From assembly GCA_003159055.1 (NCBI GenBank), contig PMLH01000177.1:215-5864 (forward strand): DNA of 5,650 bases. Reading direction: 5' to 3'. The notes beneath the pieces were generated by a model, which saw nothing but the letters and a program-made list of their open reading frames with translations, had not been told where the DNA came from and did no database searches. The stretch is from Myxococcales bacterium. Lineage in GTDB: Bacteria > Myxococcota > Polyangia > Fen-1088. Within the stretch, counting starts at the first letter, position 1, and each line of letters opens with the position of its first letter. Both the position numbers and the translations under genes were made by a program. Below are positions 2 to 5,331 of this stretch, piece by piece.

Positions 2-646
2 CGCCTTCTTGAAGGGCTGCCAACCGCCGTGCGCCTGGTACACCGACAACTTGCGAATGTCGGGCACACCGAGGTTGCGGGTGACGATTTTCTCACCGGG
101 CGTGGAATGAAAAGCCGCGCGCGCATCAATGGGAGTAAACTCCGGTCCTTCCGTCGCCTCGGCAGCGGGCTTGCCGCGAAGCTCGTCTATGAGCGCATCC
201 AGGTTCCGGGCGCCAAGGCCGCGGTAGCGCGTTCCGTCGGTCACCACCGAAGCACCGTGAGCGCAACCGATGAGGTCGTCGTCCTCGTCGAGGCTGAACA
301 GGCCGTCGTCCGTGCTTTGTCCAGCACGGATGCCCAGGCGCTTGTGCACGTGATCGAGGGCGTCGTACCCCGCGCGGGCCACGCAGCCGAGGTTGCTACA
401 CACGTGTAACCGATGCCGCGCAGGCGGATGCCGGCGGAACATCGTGTAGAAGGTCACCACACCAAAGACGTGAGCCACCGGCAAATCGAGCAGACGGGCC
501 ACGTGCTCGATCGCCTCGTCAGAAAGATGACCAATCTCGTCCTGAACGAGGTGAAGCACCGGGATCAACGCTGCTTGCGCGTTGGGATAGCGCCCCCGAA
601 CCCGGCTTACCGACTGTAGCGTTTGCGATGAAAGATCGATGGCCAT
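2..646 (-). CDS. nuoE: NADH dehydrogenase NuoE–NuoF fusion, 3' end beyond the window
   Basis: The first 215 codons are visible and contain no stop. Residues 1-158 form the thioredoxin-like [2Fe-2S] subunit of respiratory complex I (NuoE/Nqo2, 24-kDa family), which accepts electrons beside the NADH/FMN subunit. Landmarks are ALIPVLHLVQDEIGHLS (26-42), VFGVVTFYTMF (60-70) and the Cys pair HVCSNLGCV (C83, C88). After a linker (about 159-184), residues 185-215 (EKIVTRNLG..., YQAHGGWQPFKKA) match the N-terminal start of NuoF (51-kDa, FMN/NADH subunit). No ATG lies in the linker, so the two appear to be one polypeptide. Of the second Cys pair (C-x3-C in the family) only C128 is present; the earlier position is D124. 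ATG 646 is the first start after an in-frame TAG at 680-682; the Shine-Dalgarno is weak. NuoE is certain; the fusion is strongly supported but the NuoF part is cut by the window edge. It could serve complex I or a related NADH-linked diaphorase module. Confidence 0.88.
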   Translation of the reverse strand, partial: MAIDLSSQTLQSVSRVRGRYPNAQAALIPVLHLVQDEIGHLSDEAIEHVARLLDLPVAHVFGVVTFYTMFRRHPPARHRLHVCSNLGCVARAGYDALDHVHKRLGIRAGQSTDDGLFSLDEDDDLIGCAHGASVVTDGTRYRGLGARNLDALIDELRGKPAAEATEGPEFTPIDARAAFHSTPGEKIVTRNLGVPDIRKLSVYQAHGGWQPFKKA

Positions 647-1485: not shown

Positions 1486-2811
1486 ATGCAGATTCGGATT
1501 CTCCTTGTCGACGACGACAGAACCACCCGGGAAGCACTCTCGCGTGTGGTGGCCTCGCTTGGCTACGAATACGTTGCCGCGGAAACCGTGACGCGTGCGC
1601 TGGACGCACTTTCGTCCAAGCCTTTCGAGCTGTGCATGGTCTCGCTCGGGCTGCCCGTCGACACCATCCGCAACGTTGTCGCCTCCGCGCACGCGCGAAA
1701 AAGCGCGATTCCGATCGTGGTTCGGGCCGCGCAGGGTACTGTGAGAGAGATCGTCTCGGCGTTTCGAATGGGGGCCGTGGACTTCATCCCGCGGGCGTTC
1801 CACGACGAGGTTTGCGGCGAGGTCATCGAGCGTGCCTTGGCCGAGCGTGGACGTGGCGTCGCCCCCCTGCGAACCAGCGGCGCGACCCTGGTCGGAGAAC
1901 ACCCGGCCATGCACGTCGTGCTCGAACGCGTGGATCAGGTTGCCCATTCTGACGCCAGCGTGCTCATCCGCGGCGAGGATGGTACGGGCAAGGAAGTCGT
2001 GGCGCGTCTGATCCATGCCTGCGGCACGCGCCGCAGTGGACCGTTCGTCGCCGTCCGCTTGGCGGCGGGCGACGCCAAGCTGACCGCAACCGACATGTTC
2101 GGCAGCCAGCACACCTCGGCCAAGGGCCCTTCGGTATCCAGCATCGGCAAGCTGCAAGAGGCCGAACACGGCACCTTGTTTGTCGACGAGATCGCGAATC
2201 TTCCACGCGAGCTTCAAGTGGGACTTCTGCGGCTGGTGCGGGATCCGGCCAGCCGAAGCCGCACCGACGTGCGCATCGTCGCCGCCACCACGAAGAACCT
2301 CCAACAATCGGTGCGCGAGGGCGCGTTCATCGAGGACCTCTACTACCGCCTCAACATCATTCCGATCGAGATTCCGCCGCTTCGAGAACGGCTGGAAGAC
2401 GTCCCGATTCTCGTCGAGCATTTCCGACGCTCGGCCAACGCGTTCCGCGGCCGCGAGACGCCGCCGTTCCCGCCGGATGTACTGGTTCACCTCGGCGAAT
2501 TTCCATGGCCGGGCAACGTCCGCCAACTGGAAACCGTCGTCGCCAACCTAGTCATCGCGGCCAAGGATCGCGGGGTCACAGTGTGCGACCTGCCCGCCAG
2601 TTTGCGTACAGACGTGAAGTCGCTCGGACAGGCAATCGTCGATCTGCCTCCTCACGGGGTCGATCTGCGCATGCTGCTGACCCAGCTCGAAGATCGATTG
2701 ATCGGGCAAGCGCTCGAACGAACCGGCGGAAACAAGAATCGCGCCGCCGAGCTTCTGGGCATGAATCGGACCACGCTGGTTGAGAAGTTGCGCCGCAGAA
2801 CCGTGGCCTAA
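1486..2811 (+). CDS. NtrC-family regulator with degenerate receiver and no GAFTGA loop
   Basis: This 441-residue protein has the order and length of an NtrC-type response regulator: receiver (1-120), AAA+ ATPase (about 135-365) and Fis-type helix-turn-helix (about 402-438, ending NRAAELLGMNRTTLVEKLRRR). Walker A GEDGTGKE (163-170) and Walker B TLFVDE (230-235) are intact, as are the LPPLRER-like and WPGNVRQLE motifs. Key positions are altered. The receiver keeps acidic D9-D11 but has Ser53 where the phosphorylated Asp belongs, Arg80 for the conserved Thr/Ser and Arg103 for the conserved Lys. The GAFTGA loop that touches sigma-54 reads TSAKGP (210-215). In the FREDLYYRL segment the first arginine is I282. 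It therefore should bind DNA and perhaps ATP, but probably is not phosphorylated or able to open sigma-54 promoters. The open frame reaches GTG 1333, but MQIRILLVDDD is a typical receiver start. GGAG sits only one base before ATG 1486, so the start is uncertain. No histidine kinase is adjacent. Confidence 0.88.
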   Translation: MQIRILLVDDDRTTREALSRVVASLGYEYVAAETVTRALDALSSKPFELCMVSLGLPVDTIRNVVASAHARKSAIPIVVRAAQGTVREIVSAFRMGAVDFIPRAFHDEVCGEVIERALAERGRGVAPLRTSGATLVGEHPAMHVVLERVDQVAHSDASVLIRGEDGTGKEVVARLIHACGTRRSGPFVAVRLAAGDAKLTATDMFGSQHTSAKGPSVSSIGKLQEAEHGTLFVDEIANLPRELQVGLLRLVRDPASRSRTDVRIVAATTKNLQQSVREGAFIEDLYYRLNIIPIEIPPLRERLEDVPILVEHFRRSANAFRGRETPPFPPDVLVHLGEFPWPGNVRQLETVVANLVIAAKDRGVTVCDLPASLRTDVKSLGQAIVDLPPHGVDLRMLLTQLEDRLIGQALERTGGNKNRAAELLGMNRTTLVEKLRRRTVA

Positions 2812-2828
2812 ACACCGACAGATGCAAT

Positions 2829-2908
2829 CGTCATCGGCGCCACGTTTTCTACCCTTGTCGTCAGTGGGTTGACGGTAGGGTTCCTTCCCTGACGTCATTC
2901 GGCTGACG
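2829..2908. promoter_or_regulatory. Array of three enhancer-like inverted repeats (CGTCA-N6-TGACG)
   Basis: Two exact copies of CGTCA-N6-TGACG lie at 2859-2874 and 2893-2908. A degenerate third, CGTCA-N6-CCACG, lies at 2829-2844. Centres are 30 and 34 bases apart, about three helical turns. The right-hand site also forms the palindrome TGACGTCA (2890-2897). They sit about 160, 130 and 95 bases before the predicted sigma-54 start site (2996), the usual range for upstream activator sequences of enhancer-binding proteins. Which protein binds is unknown; the Fis-type HTH regulator encoded just upstream is the obvious candidate. Confidence 0.6.
2851..2881 (+). terminator. Imperfect stem-loop, alternative terminator of the regulator gene
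   Basis: ACCCT...CGTCA (2851-2863) pairs with TGACG...AGGGT (2870-2881) around a six-base loop, with a three-against-two bulge inside the stem. It lies 40 bases after the regulator's stop and is followed by TCCTTCCCT, a poor T-run. It may end the regulator transcript, but the CGTCA-N6-TGACG core recurs at 2893-2908, so a DNA-binding role explains it at least as well. Confidence 0.3.
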
Positions 2909-2969: not shown

Positions 2970-2985
2970 TGGCACGGGTGGTGCA
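2970..2985 (+). promoter_or_regulatory. Sigma-54 (-24/-12) promoter of the sigma-factor gene
   Basis: TGGCACG-GGTG-GTGCA fits the RpoN consensus TGGCACG-N4-TTGCA with one mismatch. The invariant GG (2971-2972) and GC (2983-2984) are ten bases apart as required. Counting from the -24 and -12 positions gives a start of transcription at 2996. The sigma-factor ATG is at 2998, so the mRNA would be practically leaderless, and indeed no Shine-Dalgarno is present. Upstream repeats at 2829-2908 look like the matching enhancer. Confidence 0.8.
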
Positions 2986-2997
2986 AACCGCTCCCGC

Positions 2998-3801
2998 ATG
3001 CCTAAAGCGAAGCGAACTCGGGTTGGAAAGCAACGGCGGCCGGTAGCACACAGCACACCGAAAAAGCCCACACGAGCACGCAAGCTTTCGGCCAAGGCGC
3101 TGGCAGCGCGACGAAGCGAGTACGCAGCGAAGTTTTTCCCGTACATCGAGAAGGTCGCGCGCAGACTCGCCCGTCGGCTTCCCGCGCACGTCGAGATCGA
3201 CGACCTGGTTTCGGCAGGCGTGATTGGCCTGATGGAAGCTGCCGAGCGTTTTGATCCGAAGCGCGTCGATCGCTTCGAAGCTTTCGCCGAGTTCCGCATC
3301 CGCGGCGCCATGCTCGACGATCTGCGAGCGCGCGACACGCTTTCGCGCGATATGCGACGTCTCTCGAACGAGTTGCGGGAGGCCACCCGCAAGCTGGAAT
3401 CGCAGCTTGGCCGGTCGCCCGATCAAGGCGAACTGGCTGAGACGCTCGGCCTCCGAGTCGACGAGCTCTACACGCGCCAACAGAAGTTGTCAGGCTCTTC
3501 CGTGGTCGGCATCGACGACGCTGGTCCCGATTTCCTCGAACGTACGAGCGACGCCAATTCTCCCGATCCATTCGAGCTTACCGCGCATCGGGAAACCTTG
3601 GCCCACCTGGTCTCTGGCATCGACGATCTGCCTGAGAAGATGCAACAGGTCCTTTCGCTCTACTACTGCGAGAACATGAACTTGAAGGAAATCGGCGAGA
3701 TCCTGGGCGTCACCGAGTCGCGCGTCTGCCAGATCCACGGCGAGGCAACCCGCCGCCTGCGCGAAACGCTGTCCGACATCGAGGACGCCGTCGCCGCGTA
3801 A
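2998..3801 (+). CDS. FliA/WhiG-family (sigma-28 type) RNA polymerase sigma factor
   Basis: This 267-residue protein directs RNA polymerase to a dedicated promoter class. Region 2 has EIDDLVSAGVIGLMEAAERFDP (split as 66-75 and 76-87) and FEAFAEFRIRGAML (93-106), the hallmark of the FliA/WhiG/SigB group. Region 3 (about 114-160) contains LGRSPDQGELAETLG, and region 4 (about 211-256) contains LPEKMQQVLSLYY and the helix-turn-helix LKEIGEILGVTESRVCQIH. The FliA group usually has about 240 residues; the excess is an N-terminal tail (1-36) packed with Lys and Arg. ATG 2998 is the only choice: an in-frame TAG lies at 2953-2955 and no ATG, GTG or TTG follows before region 2. It is preceded by a sigma-54 promoter and followed after 76 bases by a FlgM-like antagonist, as expected for this family. 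The family is certain; whether it controls flagella, sporulation-like or other genes cannot be told from the window. Confidence 0.95.
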   Translation: MPKAKRTRVGKQRRPVAHSTPKKPTRARKLSAKALAARRSEYAAKFFPYIEKVARRLARRLPAHVEIDDLVSAGVIGLMEAAERFDPKRVDRFEAFAEFRIRGAMLDDLRARDTLSRDMRRLSNELREATRKLESQLGRSPDQGELAETLGLRVDELYTRQQKLSGSSVVGIDDAGPDFLERTSDANSPDPFELTAHRETLAHLVSGIDDLPEKMQQVLSLYYCENMNLKEIGEILGVTESRVCQIHGEATRRLRETLSDIEDAVAA

Positions 3802-3881: not shown

Positions 3882-4081
3882 CGGAATACATGGCAGCATC
3901 AACTGATCTCCAGCTCCGCAAGGGCCCTCGGAACGCGCCCCTCGGCGAACATGCAGAGTCGGTTTCCCGACACATGCGGGTCCGGGCACTACGACGGCAG
4001 GTTGAGGAAGGCACGTACAAGGTCAACCCGCAACGCCTCGCGCTCAGGATTTTGGCGAAAGCGCTCCGCGATCAAACCTGA
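3878..4081 (+). CDS. flgM: FlgM-like anti-sigma-28 factor
   Basis: This small, charged 67-residue protein has no membrane segment. Its C-terminal half (33-64: MRVRALRRQVEEGTYKVN followed by PQRLALRILAKAL) carries the FlgM signature, a helix, then G-x-Y-x-V-[DN], then an amphipathic helix I/L-A-x-x-I/L-L. In FlgM this part wraps around FliA-type sigma factors and keeps them off RNA polymerase. FlgM proteins are commonly near 100 residues, so this one is short at its N-terminus, the unstructured part. It follows the FliA-type gene on the same strand, which strongly supports a sigma/anti-sigma pair. ATG 3878 is the first start after the in-frame TGA at 3842-3844; ATG 3890 (63 residues) is an alternative that would fit the promoter proposed at 3856-3881. 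Its last 38 bases overlap the 3' end of the convergent DUF763 gene. Confidence 0.82.
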   Translation: MSEYMAASTDLQLRKGPRNAPLGEHAESVSRHMRVRALRRQVEEGTYKVNPQRLALRILAKALRDQT

Positions 4082-5294
4082 GTGAAAGCTGCTTCGGTCG
4101 TGACGCACGATCGAAGCAGGTTCGTCCGCCCAATTGTGGCGAGATGCGCCGTTCGTGCGCAATCACGGCCGATAACGCCAAAGCGGGGCCGATGGGCAGA
4201 CTCTTCCCGTCTGCCGCCGCCTCCGCCAACCGGCATTGCTCGTCGAGTCTGCGCAGCGCCGCCAGTTTGTCGCTTTGTCCCAAGTGTGCGCGGTCGACAG
4301 CTCGCCGAAGCGTCCGCAGCGTCTCGTCGTAGACCTTGAGCGGCACCGGAAATGGATGGCCGTCCTTTCCGCCGTGCGCAAAGGCGAAGCGCGCCGGATC
4401 AGAGAATCGGCTCGGCGCCCCGTGCAGCACCTCCGCCACCAAGGACAGCGCGAACAACGTGCGCTGCCCTATGTTCGGCGTGAGCAAAAGCTCGGGGAAG
4501 CTCGCCGGTCCTTGCCGAGCCGCCACGTGCAAGGCCGCGCCCAGGCGGCGTAGGTCCAGGTTGTCTGCGCGCACGTCGTGATGGCTCGGCATTGCAAGCA
4601 CGCGCTCGACCTCGGCCACCACGCCCGCAGGATCGGACACTGCAAGGCTGACAGTTTTCTGCCTGGCCGCTGCCGCGCCACGATCGGTGAGATTCACAAT
4701 GGGCAGAGGACTCGGTTCTCCCTCGATCGCCGCGTGCGGCTGGTCGACGAAAGATCCGGCGCGATCCCAAAGCCAATGGTACCGGCGTGCCTGGCGCTTG
4801 TCCGGATTCATCCCCTGCTGCACGACGACCCACTTGCCGTCGTCGGTGACCACGAAGCTGTGCAAATACAGATCGAACCCGTCCTGCACAGCCGCGCTGT
4901 CGACCTTGGCGACCAGCCGGCTCGCGCGCACCAATCCGGTTGCGTCGAGGGAAAGCGTGTCTCCGAGGGCACGAAGCTCGTCGGGCGTACGACGAGAATG
5001 CCGCCCGCGGCCACCACAGACGTGGATGCCAAGCTCGGCTTCCACGGGTGCTAGGCCTCGCTTGAGCGCACCGAGCACGCTGGTCGTGATCCCCGAGGAG
5101 TGCCAATCCATCCCCATGACACAGCCGAGCGACTGGAACCAAAACGGATCGGCCAGCCGACGCAAAACCTCATCGCGGCCGTAGTCCAGCACCAACGCCT
5201 CGACCATCACCCGGCCGAGGCGCGCCATGCGCGTCGCCAGCCACATCGGGACGCGACCGCCGTGAAGAGGCAAATCCGCGATGCCGGTCCTCAT
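4044..5294 (-). CDS. DUF763 domain protein
   Basis: This 416-residue protein is a full-length member of the DUF763 family found in archaea and some bacteria, with no established function that I know of. Typical blocks are MRTGIADLPLHGGRVPMWL at the start, DPFWFQSLGCVMGMDWHSSG (49-68) followed by ITTSVLGALKRG, GGRGRHSRRTP (94-104), DGKWVVVQQGMN (142-153), FAHGGKDGHPFPV (294-306) and PKQLSLRF (400-407). LLLTPNIGQRTLFALSLVAE (260-279) looks like a helix-hairpin-helix, a fold often seen in DNA-binding proteins, which is an inference. ATG 5294 fits the family's start (M-[KR]-T-G-x-ADLPLHGG); the frame continues back to a TTG at 5315. The family usually ends soon after KQL-like sequence, so the last nine or so residues are an extension, and they overlap flgM on the other strand. 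It is 37 bases after the 5332-5640 gene and probably shares its transcript. The cytoplasm is likely, as there is no signal peptide or membrane helix. Confidence 0.9.
   Translation of the reverse strand: MRTGIADLPLHGGRVPMWLATRMARLGRVMVEALVLDYGRDEVLRRLADPFWFQSLGCVMGMDWHSSGITTSVLGALKRGLAPVEAELGIHVCGGRGRHSRRTPDELRALGDTLSLDATGLVRASRLVAKVDSAAVQDGFDLYLHSFVVTDDGKWVVVQQGMNPDKRQARRYHWLWDRAGSFVDQPHAAIEGEPSPLPIVNLTDRGAAAARQKTVSLAVSDPAGVVAEVERVLAMPSHHDVRADNLDLRRLGAALHVAARQGPASFPELLLTPNIGQRTLFALSLVAEVLHGAPSRFSDPARFAFAHGGKDGHPFPVPLKVYDETLRTLRRAVDRAHLGQSDKLAALRRLDEQCRLAEAAADGKSLPIGPALALSAVIAHERRISPQLGGRTCFDRASRPKQLSLRFDRGALSPKS
4089..4119 (+). terminator. 14-bp stem-loop after flgM, probable terminator
   Basis: CTGCTTCGGTCGTG-ACG-CACGATCGAAGCAG forms 14 pairs with one G·T wobble and a three-base loop, beginning eight bases after the flgM stop. 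It is the strongest hairpin I see in the window. No T-run follows on the plus strand (GTTCGTCC), so efficiency as an intrinsic terminator is uncertain. It lies inside the last codons (about 392-402) of the opposing DUF763 gene. It most likely ends the sigma/anti-sigma transcript; an RNA-stability role is possible. Confidence 0.55.
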
Positions 5295-5331
5295 CGGCGC
5301 ACCGCCAGTGGGCAACGCCGGGGCAAGAGCG

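Follow-up and report, generated by a model that had tools for sequence, protein, structure and literature searches.

A probable FleQ/FlrA-type sigma-54 enhancer upstream of fliA in Myxococcota and its unusual partner regulator

The fliA locus and its palindromic boxes

The window, the whole 5,650-nucleotide stretch of DNA analysed here, comes from a Myxococcales bacterium and carries, in order, a NuoE-like gene on the minus strand, crcB, a regulator gene, fliA, and a DUF763 gene and a short unassigned frame, both on the minus strand. The features that bear on the control of fliA are collected in Table 1. The NuoE-like frame (2-646, minus strand, open-ended) encodes a 2Fe-2S thioredoxin-fold protein, and no other complex I gene lies in the window. 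A comparison of the window with Rfam at gathering thresholds had no hits, and thus no fluoride riboswitch before crcB. The DUF763 gene (4044-5315, minus strand) also matches rhizobial megaplasmids; in the plasmid search (264 records), the 20 matches listed cover this gene only.

Table 1. Regulatory and coding features around fliA in the window
Feature	Position	Strand	Description
Regulator, NtrC/FleQ type	1486-2811	+	Receiver without phospho-Asp, AAA+ domain without GAFTGA, Fis-type HTH ending NRTTLVEKLRRR
Box 1, degenerate box-like sequence	2829-2844	.	2 mismatches; probably not functional
Box A	2859-2874	.	CGTCAGTGGGTTGACG; FleQ/FlrA-type palindrome, exact CGTCA-N6-TGACG
Box B	2893-2908	.	CGTCATTCGGCTGACG; exact CGTCA-N6-TGACG, centre 34 bp from box A
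Sigma-54 promoter	2970-2985	+	TGGCACGGGTGGTGCA; GG-N10-GC
fliA, FliA/WhiG-family sigma factor, presumed controlled gene	2998-3801	+	TIGR02479, 228.6 bits against a cut-off of 189.6

The fliA product exceeds the TIGR02479 cut-off and belongs with the FliA/WhiG sigma factors. Its ATG lies 12 nt after the sigma-54 box, and the distance is 12-13 nt in 17 of the 18 sequences compared (19 nt in G388). In G381 another ATG lies in frame farther upstream; in the window, no alternative in-frame start (ATG, GTG or TTG) precedes the conserved part of fliA. At sigma-54 promoters +1 is placed 12 nt after the -12 GC, which would put the transcription start near 2996 and leave a leader of about 2 nt in the window, and of about 2-3 nt across the sequences compared. 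This layout suggests a near-leaderless fliA mRNA, and the same short distance between promoter and ATG can be read at a second sigma-factor gene in relatives (L153, L154); the leader of fliL is ordinary.

The first-pass annotation, made from the sequence alone, had described six CGTCA/TGACG half-sites within 2829-2908, arranged as two pairs of identical arrangement and spacing plus a degenerate third, with centres 30 and 34 bp apart, and these counts and distances hold. It is the clustering of the half-sites that is unusual and not their total, since the whole window contains 16 and shuffles give an expectation of 18.3. Exact CGTCA-N6-TGACG occurs twice in the window, as boxes A and B, and in none of 200 dinucleotide-preserving shuffles of it. 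Both boxes contain the GTCA-N6-TGAC palindrome of FleQ/FlrA-type upstream activator sites, in two exact and conserved copies, around centres (GTGGGT and TTCGGC) that do not share the AT-rich centre of the Pseudomonas FleQ box. Given a +1 near 2996, the centre of box A falls near -130 and that of box B near -96. The sites had also been called phased: the 34-bp spacing of boxes A and B proved invariant, but it does not correspond to an integral number of helical turns.

Conservation at fliA and recurrence at other promoters

We compared the locus with an order of 18 genomes (numbered G); the way in was G271, one of the genomes in a sample drawn from the phylum to which a Polyangiaceae record belongs. 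A contig scan with the protein alignment gave, among the matches listed, proteins only 31-38% identical and of a general NtrC character, so that the relatives were taken from a genome search. The few listed homologues that carry an organism name come from three Polyangia, one Myxococcales and one Deltaproteobacteria. An orthologous HTH was found at E below 1e-18 in 17 of the 18 genomes, the local regulator not being found in G394, and a FliA-type gene adjoins the orthologous HTH gene in all 17.

The core of box A, GTCA-N6-TGAC, is exact in each of these 17 relatives, and box B stands at exactly +34 from it, 13 times without a mismatch and four times with one (G380, G382, G366 and G393). A sigma-54 box, TGGCAY-N6-TGCW, is also present in all 17; measured from the start of box A it lies at 109-112 bp in 16 relatives, within 2 bp of the distance in the window, and at 101 bp in G271. 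The boxes therefore stand upstream of a flagellar sigma-54 promoter throughout this set. Phylogenetic footprinting, which the first-pass annotation had proposed, gave a clear outline in an alignment of 16 sequences (the window plus 15 relatives, all but G366 and G393): half-sites are identical to the window in 92-100% of cells, the two box centres in 43% and 62%, and the spacers in 36% (2875-2892), 28% (2845-2858) and 41% (2909-2970). The proposal of a readable operator at enhancer distance is thus borne out, both by this footprint and by a sigma-54 promoter at near-fixed distance.

The same comparison reduces three operator sites to two. At its offset in the window, box 1 has 4 to 8 mismatches of 8 in all 17 relatives, and we rejected a third phased site on this ground. 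Box-like sequences do occur 17-45 bp upstream of box A in a few relatives, with one mismatch in G380 (at -34) and G271 (at -19) and two in G386 and G391 (at -18). Loss of the repeats in close relatives had been named as the observation that would tell against the operator; boxes A and B are kept, and only box 1 fails. Chance clustering of the half-sites, to which the unconserved box 1 might be ascribed, is refuted for boxes A and B by their conservation in 17 of 17 relatives and by the shuffles, and its probability is negligible. Of 377 genomes in a sample of the phylum, a single one, G271, has the complete pattern of two boxes plus sigma-54 promoter, and has it at this locus; the reversed control gave 0 of 377. 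The phylum-wide HTH search scored up to 15 candidates per genome, and copies may be missed.

Boxes of the same kind also recur elsewhere in the related genomes. Exact tandem boxes were found at 28 places in 15 of the 18 genomes, against 1 in the reversed control, and inspection of the neighbourhoods places 13 of them before fliA, 4 before fliL-fliM (G380, G381, G382 and G395), 2 before a second gene of the sigma-70 family, FliA-like on reading (G380 and G382), and 8 at non-flagellar positions, with 1 left unassigned. Pfam confirms FliM and FliL in L156, FliM in L260, and sigma-70 regions in the second sigma-factor gene. A GG-N10-GC element follows the fliL boxes in all four tandem-box genomes. 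In the six genomes G386-G391, where flagellin and FliM occur together with a GAFTGA-less local regulator, fliL is preceded every time by one box with a single mismatch and one exact box, 30 bp apart, with GG-N10-GC at a distance of exactly 47 bp, counted from where the exact box starts. Because boxes and promoter element are kept there, sigma-54 control seems to persist after the loss of GAFTGA.

The eight non-flagellar tandem hits, all at 19-bp spacing, correspond to L148-L152 (G387, G388, G389, G390 and G392), where three or four GTCA-N6-TGAC boxes form pairs 19 bp apart with about 100 bp between pairs. Beside them, L151 (by Pfam) and L152 (by reading) encode an FHA-domain bEBP that has a different C-terminus and the loop GAHSQA; the gene was not seen in L148-L150. 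Such places indicate that other proteins may read the motif, and they lend some colour to the idea that an unrelated transcription factor binds boxes A and B. We consider this improbable: the motif agrees with the FleQ/FlrA type, and the boxes sit at flagellar sigma-54 promoters, namely those of fliA, fliL and the second sigma-factor gene.

Two broader searches were set aside. The proposed genome-wide search for CGTCA-N6-TGACG, run in the 18 genomes of the related order, did return an excess (244 against 53 in the reversed control), but we do not take the count as evidence of a regulon; G394, in which no local regulator was found, is also high (20 against 1). A search for one box with a loose sigma-54 box mixed fliA sites with other hits.

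From the agreement with the FleQ/FlrA motif we conclude that the box operator is genuine and belongs to a known type, a flagellar sigma-54 enhancer, and boxes A and B very probably function as an enhancer of the bEBP type, as judged from sequence and its conservation.

The genomes differ in the flagellar genes that could be detected. Flagellin was matched in 12 of the 18 and FliM in 11; neither was matched in G383, G384, G385, G392, G393 and G366, whose assemblies are of unstated completeness. In all six, fliA is nevertheless retained together with the boxes and the sigma-54 box, and one may ask what role a flagellar sigma factor has where there is no flagellum. FHIPEP matched 17 of the 18 genomes, among them G384, G385, G392 and G393, with a weak match in G366 and none in G383. 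This family does not separate flagellar FlhA from its type III secretion relatives, and we set it aside as a marker of flagella, as the matches could be either.

The neighbouring regulator and its intact paralogue

The first-pass annotation had implied that the adjacent regulator is a normal sigma-54 activator, and this part of the reading did not survive. The protein does have the outline of one: Pfam recognizes Response_reg, Sigma54_activat (149.9 bits), an AAA+ lid and a Fis-type HTH_8, and the AAA+ domain has the Walker A (GEDGTGKE) and Walker B (LFVDEI) motifs of sigma-54-activating bEBPs. Where GAFTGA should stand, however, it reads TSAKGP, and in the receiver Ser53 occupies the position of the phospho-acceptor Asp while Arg103 replaces the Lys. 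Not every bEBP needs this Asp. Among 120 homologues this position is Ser in 62 and Asp in 44, so that its loss is limited to part of the group. A GAFTGA-like motif is present in 3 of the 120 top homologues, the Walker A lysine in 112, and the helix NRTTLVEKL, without a single change, in 120. The predicted fold (mean pLDDT 83) keeps the AAA+ domain and the HTH, with residues 209-218, at the expected place of GAFTGA, under 50.

Fold matches of the regulator include NtrX and FleQ, and a sequence search of the PDB put Pseudomonas FleQ first (209.5 bits, against 206.5 for NtrX), so that the FleQ label rests on a small margin. The Fis-type HTH carries the RTTLVEK helix of the FleQ family, RTTLVEKMRK of FleQ aligning with RTTLVEKLRR of the regulator. 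For the N-terminal domain of FleQ, which we take to be Pfam PF06490, the regulator has Response_reg instead according to Pfam, and no NCBIfam bEBP model among the 25 matches listed reaches its cut-off for the window proteins.

In the relatives, the local copy appears in several states of completeness. The copies of G271, G380, G382 and G395 keep GAFTGA, the Asp and the Lys; the copy of G381 is cut by its contig. In a tree of 49 rows a branch with SH-aLRT 97 (quick method) separates the 28 without GAFTGA from the rest, which fits a single loss of the motif. The tree omits rows of fewer than 300 residues (the local copies of G381, G383, G384, G385 and G391 and the remote copy of G389), along with P0113, G366 and G393. 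The last two genomes (L128, L129) have a local loop GAFTDV and a helix NRSTL, possibly a separate loop loss, and keep box A, box B with one mismatch and the sigma-54 box. In G383, G384 and G385 (L122, L119 and L123) the AAA+ domain is gone while the boxes and the promoter stay: what the gene still encodes is an initial receiver segment joined to the HTH at a similar junction, in open frames 169-170 codons long, and in the one short copy tested (L119) Pfam recognizes HTH_8 only. Pairwise comparison of six genomes with full-length degenerate copies gave dN of 0-0.067 for the HTH, 0.05-0.17 for the AAA+ domain and 0.05-0.15 for the receiver, with dS of 0.2-0.8. As dN lies clearly under dS, and in the HTH most strongly so, the degenerate gene is being maintained and is not decaying freely.

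This purifying selection on the AAA+ domain, the Walker A lysine kept in 112 of 120 homologues, and the position of the gene next to fliA in 17 of 17 relatives would all suit a local regulator that still activates fliA and contacts sigma-54 through another surface. We find this quite unlikely, as GAFTGA is described as necessary for contact with sigma-54 (PMC10274813), the loop region is variable both in length and in sequence and is predicted with low confidence (residues 209-218), and three genomes retain boxes and promoter with no AAA+ domain at all. The regulator appears instead to keep DNA binding and is unlikely to drive sigma-54 alone, and its HTH probably binds boxes A and B.

A candidate for the missing activity is encoded elsewhere. 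A second gene with LGLNRTTLVEKLRR was found in 14 of the 18 genomes, with a GAFTGA or GSFTGA loop in 13 of the 14 copies, the remaining one (G389) being a partial frame. In G383-G392, the 10 genomes in which the local copy is missing either GAFTGA or the AAA+ domain, it is present in 8, and the count becomes 9 of 12 when G366 and G393 are added. Among these it was not found in G385, G388 and G366, whose assemblies may be incomplete. RpoN is matched in all 18 genomes, above the cut-off in 16.

The local protein could also be a plain repressor or sigma-70 regulator of fliA, with no other bEBP involved and the sigma-54 box a relic or a trap, since bEBPs without GAFTGA, such as NtrC of Caulobacter and Rhodobacter capsulatus, act at sigma-70 promoters (PMC10274813). 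A relic would hardly be expected in all 17 relatives with so little change in its distance, rpoN is present, and the local regulator itself has GAFTGA in four relatives, so that we regard this explanation as unlikely.

A model for the operator and its relation to known systems

Boxes A and B would probably form a two-site upstream activator sequence for the sigma-54 promoter that transcribes fliA almost leaderless, each box taking one dimer of a Fis-type HTH. Activation would most likely come in trans from the intact GAFTGA paralogue, which has the same recognition helix, while the local regulator would bind the boxes yet be unable to activate. It may instead modulate fliA, either as a competitor for the boxes or as a member of mixed oligomers; competition is the most likely and simplest form, because the shortest copies have no ATPase domain with which to join a ring. 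We propose activation by the paralogue and modulation by the local protein because the sigma-54 promoters and boxes of fliA and fliL persist despite the disarmed local protein. The complete model, in which enhancer, activation in trans and local modulator are combined, is one that we moderately favour. More speculative, and in our view doubtful, is its extension: that the flagellar enhancer has become a target shared by an intact activator and a disarmed paralogue working as a built-in anti-activator, that the disarmed copy decays to little more than an HTH, and that the module of operator, sigma-54 promoter and near-leaderless fliA is kept even in lineages in which neither flagellin nor FliM was detected, FliA there necessarily having some other role.

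The relatives offer a natural series at one unchanged operator, from an intact activator through a loop-less AAA+ protein to little more than an HTH, which makes the change from activator to DNA-binding modulator directly testable. With 17 relatives supporting it at the level of single bases, the FleQ/FlrA-type operator is also extended to a group of Myxococcota that is represented here chiefly by metagenomes.

A survey of the literature by titles and abstract openings found none on this locus, and the exact motif string turned up in one source, on Desulfovibrio (PMC4641369). There, the FlrA/FleQ-like DVU2894 has the predicted conserved motif yGTCA-N6-TGACr, the same palindrome, which leaves the six central bases free and is tied to a flagellar bEBP and sigma-54. 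The DVU2894 site lies upstream of its own regulator gene, with predicted autoregulation and the loop GAFTHA (PMC4641369), whereas the boxes described here lie downstream of the regulator gene and upstream of fliA. The FleQ box of Pseudomonas, GTCAAT-N2-ATTGAC, resembles boxes A and B in its GTCA-N6-TGAC half-sites and spacing, in often occurring more than once and in its place at flagellar promoters (PMC10723142), and the HTH of its regulator shares RTTLVEK with the local one. The centres here are GC-rich, however, and the neighbouring protein has a Response_reg receiver and no GAFTGA. As a caution, a ChIP study in P. fluorescens and P. putida reported no robust FleQ consensus (PMC6120874).

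The operator is thus of a known kind, and it is the partner regulator that is unusual. Other bEBPs without GAFTGA (NtrC of Caulobacter and R. capsulatus, VspR of V. cholerae) have lost loop L1 and kept DNA binding, as the local regulator appears to have done, but they are reported at sigma-70 promoters (PMC10274813), while the conserved target here is of the sigma-54 type. Closer to the proposed arrangement are the paired or hetero-oligomeric bEBPs, R. sphaeroides FleQ/FleT, HrpR/HrpS and VnfA1/VnfA3, in which two related bEBPs serve one sigma-54 promoter (PMC9542535). In the present case the interaction is putative, and one partner lacks the sigma-54 loop and, in three genomes, the whole ATPase domain.
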